From positions 1 to 42,673 of the forward strand of contig JACZSL010000007.1 in the NCBI GenBank assembly GCA_022574205.1: DNA of 42,673 bases. The letters run 5' to 3'. Below, one piece after another: positions 3,112-38,834 of the stretch. The stretch's first letter is position 1; every line of letters starts with the position of its first letter. Below the pieces are notes generated by a model. That model was not told where the DNA came from. It was given only the letters and a program-made list of their open reading frames with translations, and did no database searches. The translations under genes were made by a program, and so were the position numbers. The DNA is from Patescibacteria group bacterium (GTDB lineage Bacteria; Patescibacteriota; Minisyncoccia; Phycocordibacterales; JACZSL01).

Positions 3112-4245
3112 CTATCCTTTAGAGCACTCTCTCCAAAGTGTGCCATATTCTTCCAGATATGTTTCCTTATCTTTTGGAAGATGCTCACGAGCTGCTTTTT
3201 CAGCCTGCTCGGCATTATTTTTTTGTGTTTCGGGATGTTCGTAAGCACGTATTATTTGATCTCCAAAACACTTGGGATCCTCCTGTGCGCAAGTTAGTAC
3301 GTAATTTGTGTCTAGCACGTCTCCAATAATACCAATTTGCGTAGAAAGAATGGGGCAATGCTCTAGTGCCGCCTCAATAAACGTAAGTCCGTATCCTTCA
3401 TACCTGCCTGTGTGTAGGTATAGATCAGCGCTTTTATAAAGCGAAGCAACATTTTCCTGCCAACCGATAAACACAACATTGTCCCGTAGTCCAAGCTCCA
3501 TAACCCGCTTTTTTAAAGACTCTTTTTCTCTACCACTGCCGGCTATGATAAGTCCGATCTTAGAGTTTTTCTCGAGTGCAATTTTCAAGGAAGAGAAGGC
3601 TAGTGGAATGTTTTTCTCGCGCTCAAGGCGTGAGTTCATAAGAACAATAAAATCAAACATTGGGTATTCTTTCTTCAAGTCCATTCCACCTCCAACTTTC
3701 TTTTTCTCTTCGTATATGGGGAGTATTTTTGGTGTTGATTTCAATGTATACCGTTTATTGACGGAAGTTGCGATACGCTTTGAAACAACACGTACACAAT
3801 TAGCGTGTGGTAATACCATTTCTGCGATAAGGACACGAATCTTATTTAAAAGTGATCCGCGAGTAAAATAAGGATTTAAAAAATCAGTATGAATTTGAAT
3901 TTGGAATGGTACACGCCATTGCTGCGACAACCTCACTGCTACAAGACCCGATTCAAATGGATCTTGAGATGTTATTAATGTGTCTTTCTCGTTTAGTGCG
4001 CCGATATTAAACAATCTTTTACCAACACGGATTGCGCTTCCAATATATAAAAAGCGTGATAAAGAATTTGTTGGGTAAAGCCAGACATTTTTACTTATTT
4101 GCTCTTCACGGAGTTTAAGTATCTTTAATGTAAACACAACGACGTGAAGTTCCTCCACGCATTTACCATACTCGATTATACGGCTCCGTACCGCGCTTCC
4201 TCTTGAAAACAGCTTCCCGTCGGAACCTATGCTTAAAACTTTCAT
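3112..4245 (-). CDS. GT4-family glycosyltransferase
   Basis: A 377-residue GT-B fold protein from ATG at 4245; an upstream TTG would add four residues inside the leader element and is not preferred. The N-terminal half carries a start such as KVLSIGSDGKLF and an acceptor-binding region. The C-terminal half has MNSRLEREKNI, a GSGREKESL loop, VVFIGW, and the E-x7-E-type motif in EGYGLTFIEAALE, which in this family holds the nucleotide-sugar donor. It sits among other glycosyltransferases and is likely cytoplasmic or membrane-associated in glycan assembly. Its start codon directly abuts a 108-bp structured leader that has a second copy near 38.8 kb. The sugar and linkage cannot be predicted. Confidence 0.88.
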   Translation of the reverse strand: MKVLSIGSDGKLFSRGSAVRSRIIEYGKCVEELHVVVFTLKILKLREEQISKNVWLYPTNSLSRFLYIGSAIRVGKRLFNIGALNEKDTLITSQDPFESGLVAVRLSQQWRVPFQIQIHTDFLNPYFTRGSLLNKIRVLIAEMVLPHANCVRVVSKRIATSVNKRYTLKSTPKILPIYEEKKKVGGGMDLKKEYPMFDFIVLMNSRLEREKNIPLAFSSLKIALEKNSKIGLIIAGSGREKESLKKRVMELGLRDNVVFIGWQENVASLYKSADLYLHTGRYEGYGLTFIEAALEHCPILSTQIGIIGDVLDTNYVLTCAQEDPKCFGDQIIRAYEHPETQKNNAEQAEKAAREHLPKDKETYLEEYGTLWRECSKG

Positions 4246-4353
4246 CCCATTAGACAATTATTCTTTTAAAATATTTCATTAAATTGTGTTTGTGTCGTCT
4301 ATTCACATTTCTTTGTTTTACAGAGTAATCGTAATTACTAACGGGACAGGTCT
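4241..4353 (-). promoter_or_regulatory. Structured leader element, copy A
   Basis: This 113-bp block fills the gap between two glycosyltransferase genes and aligns without gaps to 38722-38834 with about 17 differences counted by eye. On the minus strand, UCCCGUUAGUAAUUA (4346-4332) pairs with UAAUUGUCUAAUGGGA (4260-4245) through a 15-bp stem with one bulged U. The final A of that stem is the A of the start codon. A nine-codon reading frame, MKYFKRIIV, ends at the UAA inside the stem. Two base pairs differ from copy B with changes on both strands, which supports a conserved RNA structure. The function is unknown; control of translation is inferred from the position. Confidence 0.7.
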
Positions 4354-11062: not shown

Positions 11063-12391
11063 TTATTCATAAGTGGAGTCAGAAGTTGTGGCAGCCTCCT
11101 CTAGTGCCCCAACAGTATAGATATTTGAAGGATCCCAAAGCATCCATGAGTTTAGCCCCACGTCATAGATCGCCTGAATCTGCGCTCGTACCTCTTCTTC
11201 GCCATAATTTCCGCCATAATCAAAGTCTTGAAGCCATGGACGAAACTTTGTTGCTGGATATGCTTTTTTCTCATAAAGAAGCGGTGAGGTGGTTGTTGAG
11301 AGTGGTTCACTGTTTTTATGAGTCTTTACAGTAGTACTTGTAGAAGTAACGCGCTCAATACCTCTTGCCATGGTGAAGGCAATAACATCATAAATATGCT
11401 CGTTTGGATTTGCCCAACCATTGAAACCGCTCGGATAGTGTGACGGGTAAATCATAGGGGCGATATAGTCAAAGTAAGGAAGCGCACGCTCAAGCTGTTG
11501 GCCAATATTCAAATCATCACTGTTTGTCGTCACCATGCCAAAAAGATCTGCGGAAGTCACAACGCCGAGGTCCTTGAGCCCGTCATTTAGATATGCAAAA
11601 AATTCTTCTAGTATCTCTGCCTTCCCAGTATCAGGGTTACTTGTAATGCGCTCTTCACTAAATGGAAAATAAATGTCACGCATAGGGCCATCTGATGGGA
11701 AGCGGATATAATCGTAGTTTAACTCGTCAAACCCAATCTCATACGCTTCACGGCTAATGGCTATAATATAATCCCATGCCTCTTTTGCACCAACATCAAT
11801 AAAGCTTAAGCCCTTATAATCCTTCCAAGTACTTTTGTCGCTTTCTTTCTGGACTGCAAGCTCAGGATGTTTGGATGTGTATGTTGGGTCCTGGAAGACG
11901 GTAATGCGCGCGATTGCATAAATCCCTTTCTCATTAATATACTTGATAAACTCTTTCATGTCGGGAGCATAACAATTCTCTGACAGTGCGTCTCTTAACT
12001 CTGGATTCTCCGAAACAAATCCAAGTCTTCCTGTGTAGTCTTTAATATCAATGACTATTGAATTAATTTCTGTTTCCTCCGCAATGCGCACGAGTTTCTC
12101 CCTAAATGTAGGGGTTCCAACAACACACTGTGTCATGTATATAGCCTTCACACTATTTGGTGTCGCTAGACGAATTGGCTCGAAGCCAACCACTGTTTCG
12201 TCTTGAACCGAGGCTTCTTCAGCAATATTTGAAATATTAGCTTGATTGTATTTAATAGGAAAAACGTCGGGTAATCCGACGTATGTAAAGTATATTCCTA
12301 CTAGACCAAAGAGGGCGAGCAACACTCCCTTAAGGGCAGTTAATCTATTCTTTTTTGGTGCCGGTGGCGTTGTTGTCTTGGATTTCTTCAT
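11063..12391 (-). CDS. Putative glycoside hydrolase, DUF4015/GHL13-like
   Basis: A 442-residue protein. Residues 1-16 are basic and Pro-rich, then ALKGVLLALFGLVGIYFTYVG is a signal anchor. From about residue 80 a TIM-barrel-like domain carries KAIYMTQCVVGTPTF, INSIVIDIKDYTGRLGF, GIYAIARITVFQDP, FDELNYDYIRFPSDG and GVVTSADLFGM, the usual motifs of the GHL13/DUF4015 hydrolases. The acidic residues in IDIKDY and ELNYDYIRFP could be catalytic. The C-terminal segment RPWLQDFDYGG and SWMLWDPSNIY closes the barrel. The anchor places the domain outside the membrane, where it would cut or remodel surface glycans. Its start overlaps the upstream small membrane gene by 47 bases. Confidence 0.85.
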   Translation of the reverse strand: MKKSKTTTPPAPKKNRLTALKGVLLALFGLVGIYFTYVGLPDVFPIKYNQANISNIAEEASVQDETVVGFEPIRLATPNSVKAIYMTQCVVGTPTFREKLVRIAEETEINSIVIDIKDYTGRLGFVSENPELRDALSENCYAPDMKEFIKYINEKGIYAIARITVFQDPTYTSKHPELAVQKESDKSTWKDYKGLSFIDVGAKEAWDYIIAISREAYEIGFDELNYDYIRFPSDGPMRDIYFPFSEERITSNPDTGKAEILEEFFAYLNDGLKDLGVVTSADLFGMVTTNSDDLNIGQQLERALPYFDYIAPMIYPSHYPSGFNGWANPNEHIYDVIAFTMARGIERVTSTSTTVKTHKNSEPLSTTTSPLLYEKKAYPATKFRPWLQDFDYGGNYGEEEVRAQIQAIYDVGLNSWMLWDPSNIYTVGALEEAATTSDSTYE

Positions 12392-12629
12392 CTTCTGTTT
12401 TCACGAAGCCATTACTCTTACGAACATCATTTTCAACAAATATCTCCGTTCTCTTTTCTGCTCTAGCGTACCCGCCATTGTTCATATCTTTCTGCAAAAG
12501 ATATGCAAATACCGAAATAGTGAGTCCTATTACCACAAACACTACATTCTTCCATGAAGTAGGAATACCTAGAAATGGAGTAATAACAACGACGAGTCCT
12601 AAAATGATGATACTAAGATCCTTTTTCAT
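12345..12629 (-). CDS. Small two-helix membrane protein
   Basis: A 94-residue protein of unknown function. Residues 5-22 (LSIIILGLVVVITPFLGI) and 27-45 (NVVFVVIGLTISVFAYLL) are two membrane helices. The remaining 45 residues are charged and probably cytoplasmic (RAEKRTEIFVENDVRKS). The gene overlaps the downstream glycoside-hydrolase gene by 47 bases, so the two are likely translated from one mRNA. Its own promoter lies over the end of rsmI, with TATACT six bases before the ATG, so the message should be leaderless. No homologous family is recognised. Confidence 0.75.
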   Translation of the reverse strand: MKKDLSIIILGLVVVITPFLGIPTSWKNVVFVVIGLTISVFAYLLQKDMNNGGYARAEKRTEIFVENDVRKSNGFVKTEDEEIQDNNATGTKKE

Positions 12630-12635
12630 TCCGAT

Positions 12636-12664
12636 AGTATAGCTAATTTAACAAGCTCCAACAA
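12636..12664 (-). promoter_or_regulatory. Promoter giving a leaderless transcript
   Basis: TTGTTG (12664-12659), a 17-bp spacer and TATACT (12641-12636) lie on the minus strand. Six bases later comes ATG at 12629. This is the best-formed case in the window of a promoter that places the transcript start on the start codon. Confidence 0.65.
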
Positions 12665-18570: not shown

Positions 18571-20098
18571 ATTTTGGAAAAATTCCACGAACAGCTTCCG
18601 CTACCCGTGCCTTGTTACGACTTAGTCCTTGTTACCGAATTTACCTTAGGCCCACTCTAGGTGAGATTTCGGGTACCCCCGGCTTCCCTGACTTGACGGG
18701 CGGTGAGTACAAGACTCGAGAACATATTCACCGCAGTGTTGCTGACCTGCGATTACTAGCGATTCCGACTTCATGAGGTCGAGTTGCAGACCTCAATCCG
18801 AACTGGGGCCGCTTTTATAAGGATTTGCTCCACGTCTCCGCTTAGCGTCCCGTTGTAGCGACCATTGTATCACGTGTGCAGCCCAGGATATCAAGGGACA
18901 TGCTGACCTGGCGTCATCCTCACCTTCCTCTCTCGTGAGAGAGCAGTCTCGCCTGACACATATAACAGACAACGAGGGTTGCGTTCGTTTCCCCACTTAA
19001 GGGAACAGCTCAAGCCACGAACTGACGACGGCCATGCATCACCTGCCTATCCGTCCGAAGAAAGTCTCGGTTTCCCGAGATTGTCGTATAGGTTTCTAAC
19101 CCTGGTAAGGTTCTTCGCTTATCGTCGAATTAAGCCACATGATCCACCGCTTGTGCGAGTCCCCGTCTATTCCTTTGAGTTTTAAGCTTGCGCTCGTACT
19201 ACCCAGGCGCCAAACTTAACGCGTTAGCTTCGCCTCTCAGAGGGTCGATACTCCAAAAAGCTAGTTTGGATCGTTTACGGCGTGGACTACCGGGGTATCT
19301 AATCCCGTTCGCTACCCACGCTTTCGTATTTCAGCGTCAGGAATGTGCCAGCATACTGCCTTCGCTTTTGGTGTTCCCCATGATATCAACGCATTTCACC
19401 GCTACACCATGAGTTCCGTATACCTCTCACACCCTCAAGTCATGCCGTATCTTTCGCAATTCTTGGGTTGGGCCCAAGGCTTTCACAAAAGACTAACAAA
19501 ACCGCCTACATACCCTTTACGCCCAGTAAATCCGGGTAACGCTTGGGGCACTCGTATTACCGCGCCTGCTGGCACGAGTTTAGGCACCCCTTATTCCTCA
19601 AGTACCGTCAATAAACTTCTTCCTTGAGAAAAGATCTTTACGCACCGAAGTGCTTCATCAACCACGCGGCGTCGCTCCGTCAGGCTTTCGCCCATTGCGG
19701 AAGATTCTCGACTGCGGCCTCCCGTAGGAGTATGGGCCGTGTCTCAGTCCCATCGGTGGGGGCCAGGCTCTCACCTCCCCTAAGCGTCATAGCCTTGGTA
19801 GTCCGTTACACTACCAACAAGCTGATACTTCGCAGGCCGTTCCCAAAGCGATAAATCTTTACCCTTTCGGGACCATCAGGTATTAGTACGTCTTTCGACG
19901 CATTATTCCTGACTTTGGGGTACGTACCTACGTGTTACTACCTCGTCTGCCACTCCCCCTCGTTAGGGCCAACAAATAAAATCACAGAACTAAATCCACG
20001 AGACATTTGCAGGACCCGAATGAAGGGGCGTTCGACTTGCATGCCTTATCCACGCCGCCAGCGTTCACCCTGAGCTAGGATCAAACTCTAAAAATGAA
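18571..20098 (-). rRNA. 16S ribosomal RNA
   Basis: About 1.53 kb of continuous 16S sequence without an intron. It runs from AGAGTTTGATCCTAGCTCAG near the 5' end, through GTGCCAGCAGGCGCGGTAA at the 530 loop, to AAGTCGTAACAAGG and a helix-45 hairpin with a GGAA loop. After helix 45 it reads GTGGAATTTTTCC, where bacteria usually have TTGGATCACCTCC, so the anti-Shine-Dalgarno core is missing or changed. There are mismatches to common primers at the 27F, 338, 515F and 1492R sites. The gene has its own promoter and is not linked to 23S. The ends are estimated by comparison with E. coli. Confidence 0.95.
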
Positions 20099-30702: not shown

Positions 30703-31048
30703 CTAATGGCTCATTAACTACTGTTACCAGTAGGATCGGACTATATCTTCACCCAGCTCCAGTTTTGTGATTAGAAATTTCTATTTCCAAAACTGGGGCT
30801 GGGGATTGGCGTGTAGTCTCTGAGGGTTCTTCGTATTTTTGAATATTATTTCAAAAACGTAGAAGTCTTCCCTGCTGATTATCCCGAACAAACAAATTTT
30901 CAAACCACTCAGCTCAATCTTTCGATTCACTGTTTGGGTTTTGTTTGCTTTTAGTCGGCTAAACTTGGGAGTTCCAGCATATAGCCAATTTGTTTTTGTA
31001 GCACATTTCTGCGCTAGGCACCCCGATTTGTTTGTAACAAACACGTTA
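30703..31048 (-). mobile_element. Group I intron 2 in 23S (about E. coli 2500)
   Basis: A 346-base insert between GGCACCU and CGAUGUCGGC. The core contains GCTATATGCTGGAACTCCC, CAGAGACTACACG and AAGATATAGTCCGATC. The P9 hairpin is CTACTG-GTAA-CAGTAG with a GNRA loop, and the last base before the exon is G. No endonuclease reading frame is present. Its P-element and core are very like those of intron 3, so the two may be related by transposition. Confidence 0.88.
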
Positions 31049-31090
31049 AGGTGCCGAACACCGCCGTCGATATGAACTCTTGGGCGGTAC

Positions 31091-31919: not shown

Positions 31920-32275
31920 AGTTTGAGTTTTCTCTCGCTTTTGAGAGAACTTTATGTCGCCATAAAGATCGGACTATATCTTCTCGCCTCGTGCCTAACG
32001 GCAGATGAGCCTTTGGCTCAAAGAGGTGAGTTCCGCGTGTAGTCTCTGAGGGGTCAACCCGTCAGTTGACGGACGACTTCCCTGCTGATTGTCTGCACTC
32101 ATACATTTTTACCCATTCGACCTGTCTGCCGACAGATAGGCATGTGGTAGCATGAGATACTACAGGCTTTTAGCCACAGATGTTCCAGCATATAGCGGAA
32201 TGTTTGCCTCGATGTCACCATCGAGGATCCCCATTTATAATTTTGGTCCCGGATATGACCGTGGGCGCAAGGTTA
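31290..32275 (-). mobile_element. Group I intron 3 in 23S with endonuclease gene
   Basis: A 986-base insert in the peptidyl-transferase P-loop region, between GGGGCGCUAUCCU and CCUAAAAGGUAACGG. By counting this is about E. coli 2262. The core has GCTATATGCTGGAACATC, CAGAGACTACACG and AAGATATAGTCCGATC with a P9 hairpin CTTTATG-GCGA-CATAAAG. The LAGLIDADG gene lies after P9 and runs to the 3' splice site. Joining the flanks gives an exon that matches bacterial 23S without a gap. Splice sites are inferred from that fit. Confidence 0.9.
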
Positions 32276-35950: not shown

Positions 35951-36574
35951 CTATGGGGTCAAATTTAGGCTATCAAGGAGTACTATATGCGGATAATCGA
36001 AAACATCGCGGATAAGCCTGTCGCGAATGTCGAATCTATAGCGAAAGTCAGCTGTTGAAAACACTGCACATTTGAGTTCTTTGCCCATTTCTGCTTCGAT
36101 GTTCCTGATAACTGTATCAAGTGTCGATCGTTTCAATGCGTCTCCAGCAATTAAAATGTCGACTCTATTTTCTAGTTCATTAAGGAAAAACCCGGAGATT
36201 ATGACGAGTTTTAATTTTCCACCACGGCGGAGTTTACGTAGTAGGTCTCCTTGATCGATTGGAGCTGTTTCAATAAAAAAGTTCTGAAGTGGTTTAAGAT
36301 ATACAAATGTTTCGTCGAGCACAAAACCGCGTACTTTTTTCTTGGTGATAATCTTTCTCTTGCCCTTCTTTTTTTCGACTTCGACATAAAAAGATTTCTT
36401 TTTAACAAGGCCAATGCGTTCCATCATTCCAATTTCAATACGCACTACGCCACTTGCAACCCTTGTTCTTTTTACGATGTCATGCGTCTGAAAGATTTCA
36501 CCTGGGTTAAATAGAAACAGTCGCAATATCCTTATGATTGCATTGCTCCCAAATAGTTTCCCTAGAATTTCCAT
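35951..36574 (-). CDS. Winged-helix protein with nucleotidyltransferase-like domain
   Basis: A 207-residue soluble protein. Residues 1-65 look like a winged helix-turn-helix (FGSNAIIRILRLFLFNP, THDIVKRTRVASGVVRIEIG), followed by a Lys-rich wing (KKKGKRKIITKKK). Residues about 115-190 resemble a minimal nucleotidyltransferase fold: LKLVIISGFFL, VDILIAGDALKRSTLDTVI and a conserved-looking ELKCAVFSTADFRYR. A DNA-binding regulator or a toxin-antitoxin-like protein is possible, and no partner gene is adjacent. It has a long leader with a perfect 14-bp stem ending at the start codon, which suggests post-transcriptional control. Confidence 0.7.
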   Translation of the reverse strand: MEILGKLFGSNAIIRILRLFLFNPGEIFQTHDIVKRTRVASGVVRIEIGMMERIGLVKKKSFYVEVEKKKGKRKIITKKKVRGFVLDETFVYLKPLQNFFIETAPIDQGDLLRKLRRGGKLKLVIISGFFLNELENRVDILIAGDALKRSTLDTVIRNIEAEMGKELKCAVFSTADFRYRFDIRDRLIRDVFDYPHIVLLDSLNLTP

Positions 36575-36706
36575 CCCGATAGTTATAGGGCGCGGATTGG
36601 TGTTATCTTCGCCTATATATTAACCCATTATAATTTTTCGACTTTCTAACATAGTTTGGATTCTGCGTCCGCCCTGCCTGCCGGCAGGCAGGGATAACTA
36701 TCGGGA
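36573..36706 (-). promoter_or_regulatory. Leader with 14-bp stem ending at the start codon
   Basis: AUCCCGAUAGUUAU (36706-36693) and AUAACUAUCGGGAU (36586-36573) on the minus strand are perfectly complementary. The last AU of the stem is the start of the AUG at 36574. The loop includes the palindrome CCCTGCCTGCCGGCAGGCAG with GG after it (36671-36694). TATAAC (36587-36582) also ends seven bases before the ATG, so a second, leaderless transcript could start inside the stem. Confidence 0.6.
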
Positions 36707-36719
36707 TCCATATATACGG

Positions 36720-38570: not shown

Positions 38571-38726
38571 CTAAAGATTATTTATGTTAATGGGAGCATC
38601 ACTTGTCTTTTCCTCAAGCTCTGCCTCGTATACGGAGGTTAAGAACATGATGAAAAAGCTCACCGCCAGAATGACAACAAACAACAAAACAAAGCGGAAG
38701 AATGTGCGGTTAAAGAGTTTCTTCAT
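38571..38726 (-). CDS. 51-residue single-helix membrane peptide
   Basis: The frame runs from ATG at 38726 to TAG at 38571. The N-terminus MKKLFNRTFFRF is basic and aromatic. Residues 12-30 (FVLLFVVILAVSFFIMFLT) form one membrane helix, and the tail SVYEAELEEKTSDAPININ is acidic. The charge pattern suggests N-in, C-out topology. The ATG directly abuts structured leader copy B, and the next gene starts five bases after the stop. No family is recognised. The unusual leader and the position before the DUF1360-like gene support a real gene. Confidence 0.65.
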   Translation of the reverse strand: MKKLFNRTFFRFVLLFVVILAVSFFIMFLTSVYEAELEEKTSDAPININNL

Positions 38727-38834
38727 CCCATTAGAAAGTTATTCCTTTAAAATATTTCATTGAATTGTGTTTGTACCATTTAGTCACATTTATTTGTTCT
38801 AGAGAGTAATCGTAACTTCTAACGGGACAAGTCC
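38722..38834 (-). promoter_or_regulatory. Structured leader element, copy B
   Basis: The second copy of the 113-bp block seen at 4241-4353. UCCCGUUAGAAGUUA (38827-38813) pairs with UAACUUUCUAAUGGGA (38741-38726) in a 15-bp stem with one bulged U that ends at the start codon of the 51-aa gene. A nine-codon frame, MKYFKGITF, ends inside the stem. ACGGGAC/GTCCCGT, just 5', can form a competing hairpin, a possible switch. TATAAT at 38902-38907 provides a promoter about 70 bases further upstream. Confidence 0.7.

Follow-up and report, generated by a model that had tools for sequence, protein, structure and literature searches.

Start-codon elements in the window

The window, that is, the whole 42,673-nucleotide stretch of Patescibacteria DNA analysed here, carries on its minus strand two copies of a short element, each of which runs directly into the start codon of a gene. 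Copy A (4245..4346) reaches the ATG (4243..4245) of a 377-aa glycosyltransferase-like ORF, the A being the last base of the element, and copy B (38726..38827) reaches the ATG (38724..38726) of a 51-aa peptide in the same manner. Both copies were delimited by alignment, BLAST and fold, and both read CYTG-TCCCGTTAG...CTAATGGGA-TGA on the minus strand. A sequence-only reading had described 4241-4353 and 38722-38834 as a duplicated structured leader abutting these two genes, and its account of the locus is borne out in its particulars: the copies align without gaps over the element (BLAST 87% over 112 nt, E 2e-33), the host genes are as claimed, and both copies fold on the minus strand into a long stem closing on AUG. 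In this fold GUCCCGUUAG pairs with CUAAUGGGAU, complemented by an inner helix, with the full stem present in the 38-kb copy; the last stem pairs of both copies take in the AU of the start codon. Two pairs are changed on both sides, U-G in the 4-kb copy corresponding to A-U and A-U to G-C. Folding energy (z of -1.5 to -2.9 relative to dinucleotide shuffles) is in itself modest evidence for the stem. The nine-codon frames were likewise recovered: MKYFKRIIV* (4250..4279, minus strand) stops at a UAA within the 3' arm, 5 nt ahead of the AUG, and MKYFKGITF* (38731..38760, minus strand) also ends in the 3' arm.

A third element (36574..36706, minus strand; TCCCGATAGTTAT...ATAACTATCGGGA) belongs to a different subfamily, referred to as subfamily 2, and is located at the start of a 207-aa ORF (35951-36574). 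It is flanked by a duplicated TGGA, the right copy (36570..36573) lying within the host start ATGGA and the matching left copy at 36707..36710. The first two elements, assigned to subfamily 1, have no such 4-bp target duplication and show CYTG instead: CCTG (4347..4350) stands where the duplication of copy A would be, and CTTG (38828..38831) precedes copy B, adjoined by GGGA (palindrome GGGACTTGTCCC). A tandem pair of subfamily 1 elements joined by CCTG was observed elsewhere in the genome, upstream of dnaX (G000 C15:50192-50405). CYTG also stands ahead of single copies, which points to dimers or to the junctions of circles. A possible degenerate 3' end, CTATCGGAATG (12627..12637, minus strand), at the start of a 94-aa ORF (12345-12629) is a weak candidate with one mismatch and no partner arm. 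The window furthermore contains two group I introns (30717-31049 and 31950-32249, minus strand) adjoining 23S rRNA segments, and its 23S gene matches Rfam in separate pieces.

Insertion sites and paired ends across genomes

Searching the window's own genome (G000; 650 kb in 23 contigs, with ~69 kb masked as N in the stretches taken) with the window copies yielded 30 full or partial matches. Exact instances of the 3' end CTAWYGGGATGR number 35, whereas the reversed pattern has none. In the stretches taken, 34 of 37 instances of CTAWYGGGATG coincide with gene starts (31 automatic calls, an AbrB-like gene, rpmJ and the 51-aa peptide of the window), and the other three start frames that are 11, 14 and 22 codons long, one of the three being nested in another element; a random ATG would be a gene start in ~4% of cases (~700 genes, ~17,700 ATG on both strands). 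The sequence-only reading had regarded random placement relative to genes as evidence against its proposal, and the opposite was found. The hosts, named by inspection of the encoded proteins, include dnaX, dnaG, dnaJ, recR, frr, pgk, rplI, rplU, rpmJ, ftsW, murG, msrA and ppa.

The elements fall into subfamilies that have ends and position in common and differ in their interiors: subfamily 1, to which the window pair belongs, measures ~102-132 nt, subfamily 2 ~113-133 nt, subfamily 3 203-206 nt and subfamily 4 136 nt and longer. In counts over genomes that are mostly drafts, 51 of the 98 from the order and 48 of the 112 from the class possess the 3' end, with controls near zero, and the copies fetched from other genomes are again located at gene starts. 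Viral contigs contained no relatives at the sensitivity used, and a 16-mer scan of genome contigs returned chance matches only, mostly in Bacteroidetes, and no start-codon elements. Two further repeat types were encountered on the way. One has the ends TCCCG(T/A)ACGAAAT...ATTTCGTACGGGA and occurs at gene starts of the same genome (C14, minus, ~41581; C21, minus, ~31968), in one case with TGGA duplicated; the other is a palindrome (CCTGTCTGCGTG...CACGCACAGGCAGAC, or CCTGCCTGCCGGCAGGCAGG) inserted within L004, L005, L007, L013, L017, L100, L106 and the window element at 36574-36706.

The elements are mobile. Their distribution is patchy, with 28 copies in G092 and two in G009, a member of the same genus, and the G009 orthologues of G092 hosts, including operon-internal ribosomal-protein and pil genes, are devoid of the element. 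Orthologues of the hosts in the window's genome also lack it in two genomes of the same family (G001 and G002), among them the G002 orthologue of the window glycosyltransferase; the exception is recR of G001, which bears a different copy, and the 51-aa peptide has no orthologue in these two genomes. At ftsW, the empty site GGCTAAGTATGAGA can be compared directly with the filled one, GGCTAATATGAG[TCCCG...CGGGA]TGAGG. Some elements are nested in others (L016, L017, L096).

As expected of MITEs, inverted ends of 13-15 bp are found, in 74 distinct arm pairs, and a target duplication accompanies most copies outside subfamily 1, including 36574-36706, although not the subfamily 1 pair of the window. 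The duplication has the form TGNN (TGAA, TGGA, TGTA, TGAG), as in A-TGAA-[TCCCGTTAG...CTAACGGGA]-TGAA. The left and right 4 bp match exactly in 22 of 36 and 15 of 23 copies; in either register the matches number 28 and 17, versus means of 10.4 and 9.7 and maxima of 21 and 15 in shuffled controls, all counted over family members that are not independent observations. The terminal pair of the element is T-A where the host starts with ATG and C-G where it starts with GTG (L378, L385, L399 and recR of G001), which indicates that base 1 of the host start codon comes from the element.

The sequence-only reading had looked to further homologues for pair-preserving changes, and these are abundant. Counted directly in the 74 arm pairs, positions 6-13 of the arms vary with pairing kept; position 11, for instance, is G-C in 35 cases, A-T in 25 and T-A in nine. 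Position 13, which lies outside the twelve pairs by which the arms were selected, is paired in 63 of 74; after shuffling, the mean is 49 and the highest value 55. This pattern argues for the arms pairing within one strand, RNA or single-stranded DNA, beyond the recognition of two ends by a protein. Orientation relative to the host gene is identical in all 261 interior matches (92 elements). As the ends are symmetrical, the fixed orientation implies that insertion is directional or that the opposite orientation is not tolerated.

Short elements commonly have a small frame that extends through the 3' arm. With its stop at the UAA in CTAACGGG, this frame averages 15.9 codons, versus 5.4 in shuffled interiors, and frames of at least 20 codons are found in 49% of short copies versus 18% after shuffling (better of two frames), statistics that are weakened by the shared descent of the copies. 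Coding constraint on these frames was rejected: differences at the three codon positions number 48/41/37 and the peptides are not conserved (seven pairs). Translation through the 3' arm, opening the stem, is plausible.

The nuclease-bearing form and its movement

Full-length members of the family are 276-284 bp long, with inverted ends of 13-15 bp, (T/C)CCCGTTAG.../...CTAACGGG(A/G), and a GIY-YIG ORF as their sole gene; no recognised transposase lies within these units. The ftsW insert (282 bp) encodes an intact nuclease, MYYVYLLKNKKDKKMYTGSTNNLRKRL...KRFLSLTG*, the stop codon TGA of which overlaps the ftsW start as ATGA. The nuclease comprises 86 residues in a single domain and can be assigned to the GIY-YIG fold by a decisive Pfam match (PF01541, E 3e-18), with the signature residues kept; its nearest solved relative is the UPF0213 protein BH0048, and relatives that align over the full query are spread across the class. 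Approximately 22 of 29 nuclease copies adjoin a start codon; they share these ends and have unrelated host genes. Since these 29 were picked by protein similarity alone, the selection carries no bias towards start codons. Copies off start codons include L375, L376, L393, L398 (TTGA), L399 and L401 (TATG). In L381, it is the duplicated start codon of the host that opens the nuclease frame (MNPVRDSKFFYTYILE...). Differences between nuclease copies number 839/619/1733 at codon positions 1/2/3, a pattern that points to purifying selection.

Short copies are linked to this form by subfamily 3, which keeps pieces of the nuclease gene (CGGAAACGC, AGGTCGA, GCGTTTCCTATCTCTAACGGG) and is thus an internally deleted version. 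Near-identical deleted copies at three unrelated start codons indicate that short copies moved as short copies. The subfamily 1 elements of the window contain no recognisable nuclease sequence; on balance, they seem to descend from a nuclease-bearing element as well. The window leaders are probably non-autonomous copies, or MITEs, of a start-codon transposon encoding a GIY-YIG nuclease. The element would enter between bases 1 and 2 of the start codon in the orientation of the host gene and duplicate the next 4 bp (TGNN); the new start codon would then begin with the last base of the element, leaving the host protein unchanged.

The nuclease is the leading candidate for the mover, as it is the sole gene of the element, is under selection, and tracks copy number by its presence. 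All 18 of the 112 class genomes with a near-full-length nuclease (E < 1e-28) have the end motif, with ~8 copies each, each nuclease copy itself adding one to the motif count, whereas only about one-third of the genomes lacking such a nuclease have the motif, with less than one copy each. It is likely that the nuclease drives movement, and a partner transposase encoded elsewhere in the genome may have a share in it. An ordinary transposon with an unrelated transposase elsewhere, the nuclease as passenger and start-codon confinement as survivorship in a compact genome is an unlikely alternative that has several points to its credit: 4-bp duplications and inverted ends are typical transposase products, some copies (L398, L401) lie off start codons, and G092, for all its 28 copies, has no intact nuclease of the element type among its nuclease matches. 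It leaves unexplained why the only gene of the element is selected and why its presence tracks the end motif. Y1 transposases, considered as movers in a genome-wide search, fit poorly and were rejected: no Y1 match was obtained in G014, where the ends occur 16 times. Survivorship, for its part, predicts many intergenic copies in both orientations, and hardly any are seen.

Short copies need no expression of their own and are nevertheless confined to start codons, all in a single orientation. This speaks for targeting rather than mere tolerance; active preference for start codons appears somewhat the better-founded reading, and the confinement could in part be survivorship. If start codons are targeted, they might be recognised through the promoters of leaderless genes, through ribosomes or through mRNA. 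At 8 of 13 insertion sites in the window's genome, a small sample, a -10-like box is found, versus 33% of all starts. Insertions inside operons demonstrate that no promoter is needed at the site.

Expression of the host genes and comparison with known systems

How host genes stay expressed has to be seen against the initiation signals of this genome. The 3' end of its 16S rRNA (18573-18620, minus strand) reads ...GUUCGUGGAAUUUUUCC versus ...GGAUCACCUCCUU in the Rfam consensus, a departure by which the canonical anti-Shine-Dalgarno core is lost, and Shine-Dalgarno motifs show no excess at the gene starts of this genome (5.4% versus 7.0% in a control interval). Instead, a -10-like box lies 3-10 nt upstream of one-third of ATG starts, compared with 10.6% of any ATG, a pattern like that of leaderless genes. 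In a genome of this type, a structured leader of ~100 nt ahead of the start codon calls for another route of expression. Autonomous copies and their hosts form co-directed frames with an ATGA stop/start overlap, a recognised arrangement for termination-reinitiation (PMC6728339).

The best-fitting scheme, for and against which the odds appear evenly balanced, is a stop-restart relay of ribosomes. In autonomous copies, a short frame (MNPVRD-, MSPVRD-) begins at the upstream duplicate of the start codon and is in some cases fused to the nuclease. Ribosomes reaching the old start would translate the nuclease, stop at ATGA and restart on the host gene. In short copies, the covarying stem together with the frame running to the UAA (C-UAA-CGGG-AUG) may represent a reduced relay. 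Alternatively, RNase III or the nuclease might cut the stem at its base and leave a nearly leaderless host mRNA. Such RNA cutting is rather improbable, even though the long stem closes at the AUG and an mRNA cut there could be used, given leaderless-type promoters and no Shine-Dalgarno excess; non-intron GIY-YIG inserts are moreover known in CPR rRNA genes (PMC11270868). Precise splicing would render insertions within coding sequences harmless, and none are seen, an argument that bears on splicing and not on cutting without ligation.

A cis-regulatory RNA family, in which a leader spread by duplication governs how a regulon is translated, by way of a leader peptide or a ligand, is very improbable. 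It would account for the covarying stem at the start codon, the fixed orientation and position, and 3'-arm frames longer than in shuffled sequence; target duplications, empty sites, nesting and nuclease-encoding relatives speak against it, as do hosts sharing no function, peptides without conservation and the lack of an Rfam match. Of the structured start-codon leader first proposed, the paired structure with compensatory change therefore stands, whereas its role as a dedicated regulatory leader gives way to a patchy, mobile family with nuclease-bearing relatives. The remaining candidates can be dismissed briefly: a riboswitch, known leader or intron family by the absence of Rfam matches at the window elements, a plain intergenic repeat by the start-codon position, and a spliced intron by the absence of the insertions expected inside coding sequences.

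No known family matches all features of these elements, which behave as a transposon with MITEs without a recognised transposase. A search of the open-access literature, a weak test because most subscription journals lie outside it, returned no description of such elements. Bacterial MITEs are likewise short and multicopy, with inverted ends, target duplication and a longer autonomous source, the last of these shared at least by subfamily 3, but are distinguished by the GIY-YIG autonomous partner, the confinement to start codons in one orientation and the covarying stem found here. IS200/IS605 and HEARO/IscB elements resemble the family in being small, with oriented insertion, structured ends and an endonuclease gene; however, they rely on HNH or TnpB plus Y1, genes absent from the elements described here, and produce no target duplication. 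The HEARO target is ATGA-type. The intervening sequences of 23S rRNA likewise have a long stem that closes the insert, and some of them contain a small gene. They reside in rRNA, where RNase III cuts them out and no ligation follows, whereas the present elements occupy the start codons of protein genes. GIY-YIG homing endonuclease genes (PMC1564403) have the fold and the selfish lifestyle in common with them, yet copy themselves into the cognate allele of a single site without target duplication, in contrast to the many unrelated genes and the 4-bp duplication seen here.

The nearest published observation found is that, according to the accessible text of PMC11270868, GIY-YIG genes in CPR rRNA genes sit in non-intron inserts, seemingly outside homing spread. 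Two loci from the present search are cases alike: L353 (16S, G011) and L362 (23S, G075) are GIY-YIG ORFs within rRNA genes, bounded by other long inverted repeats, and are possibly relatives with a different target. The published inserts differ in lying in rRNA genes, and that accessible text mentions neither a position at start codons nor a duplicated target, inverted ends or shortened derivatives.

Taken at its fullest, the reading is that an 86-residue single-domain nuclease may act as the transposase of a ~280-bp start-codon-directed element, with a hand-over of ribosomes to the host, a tentative proposal that falls somewhat short of being probable. If true, the element would be among the smallest autonomous mobile elements known, its insertion into essential genes would be nearly harmless, and tiny hairpin derivatives would have colonised dozens of housekeeping start codons in streamlined genomes. 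The element would cope with a gene-dense genome by entering and rebuilding the start codon and passing translation on to the host. An explanation would be at hand for part of the numerous small GIY-YIG genes in such genomes and for predicted frames beginning with MNPVR-, and structured "leaders" or repeats at start codons may have to be regarded, with due caution, as mobile elements rather than regulons.
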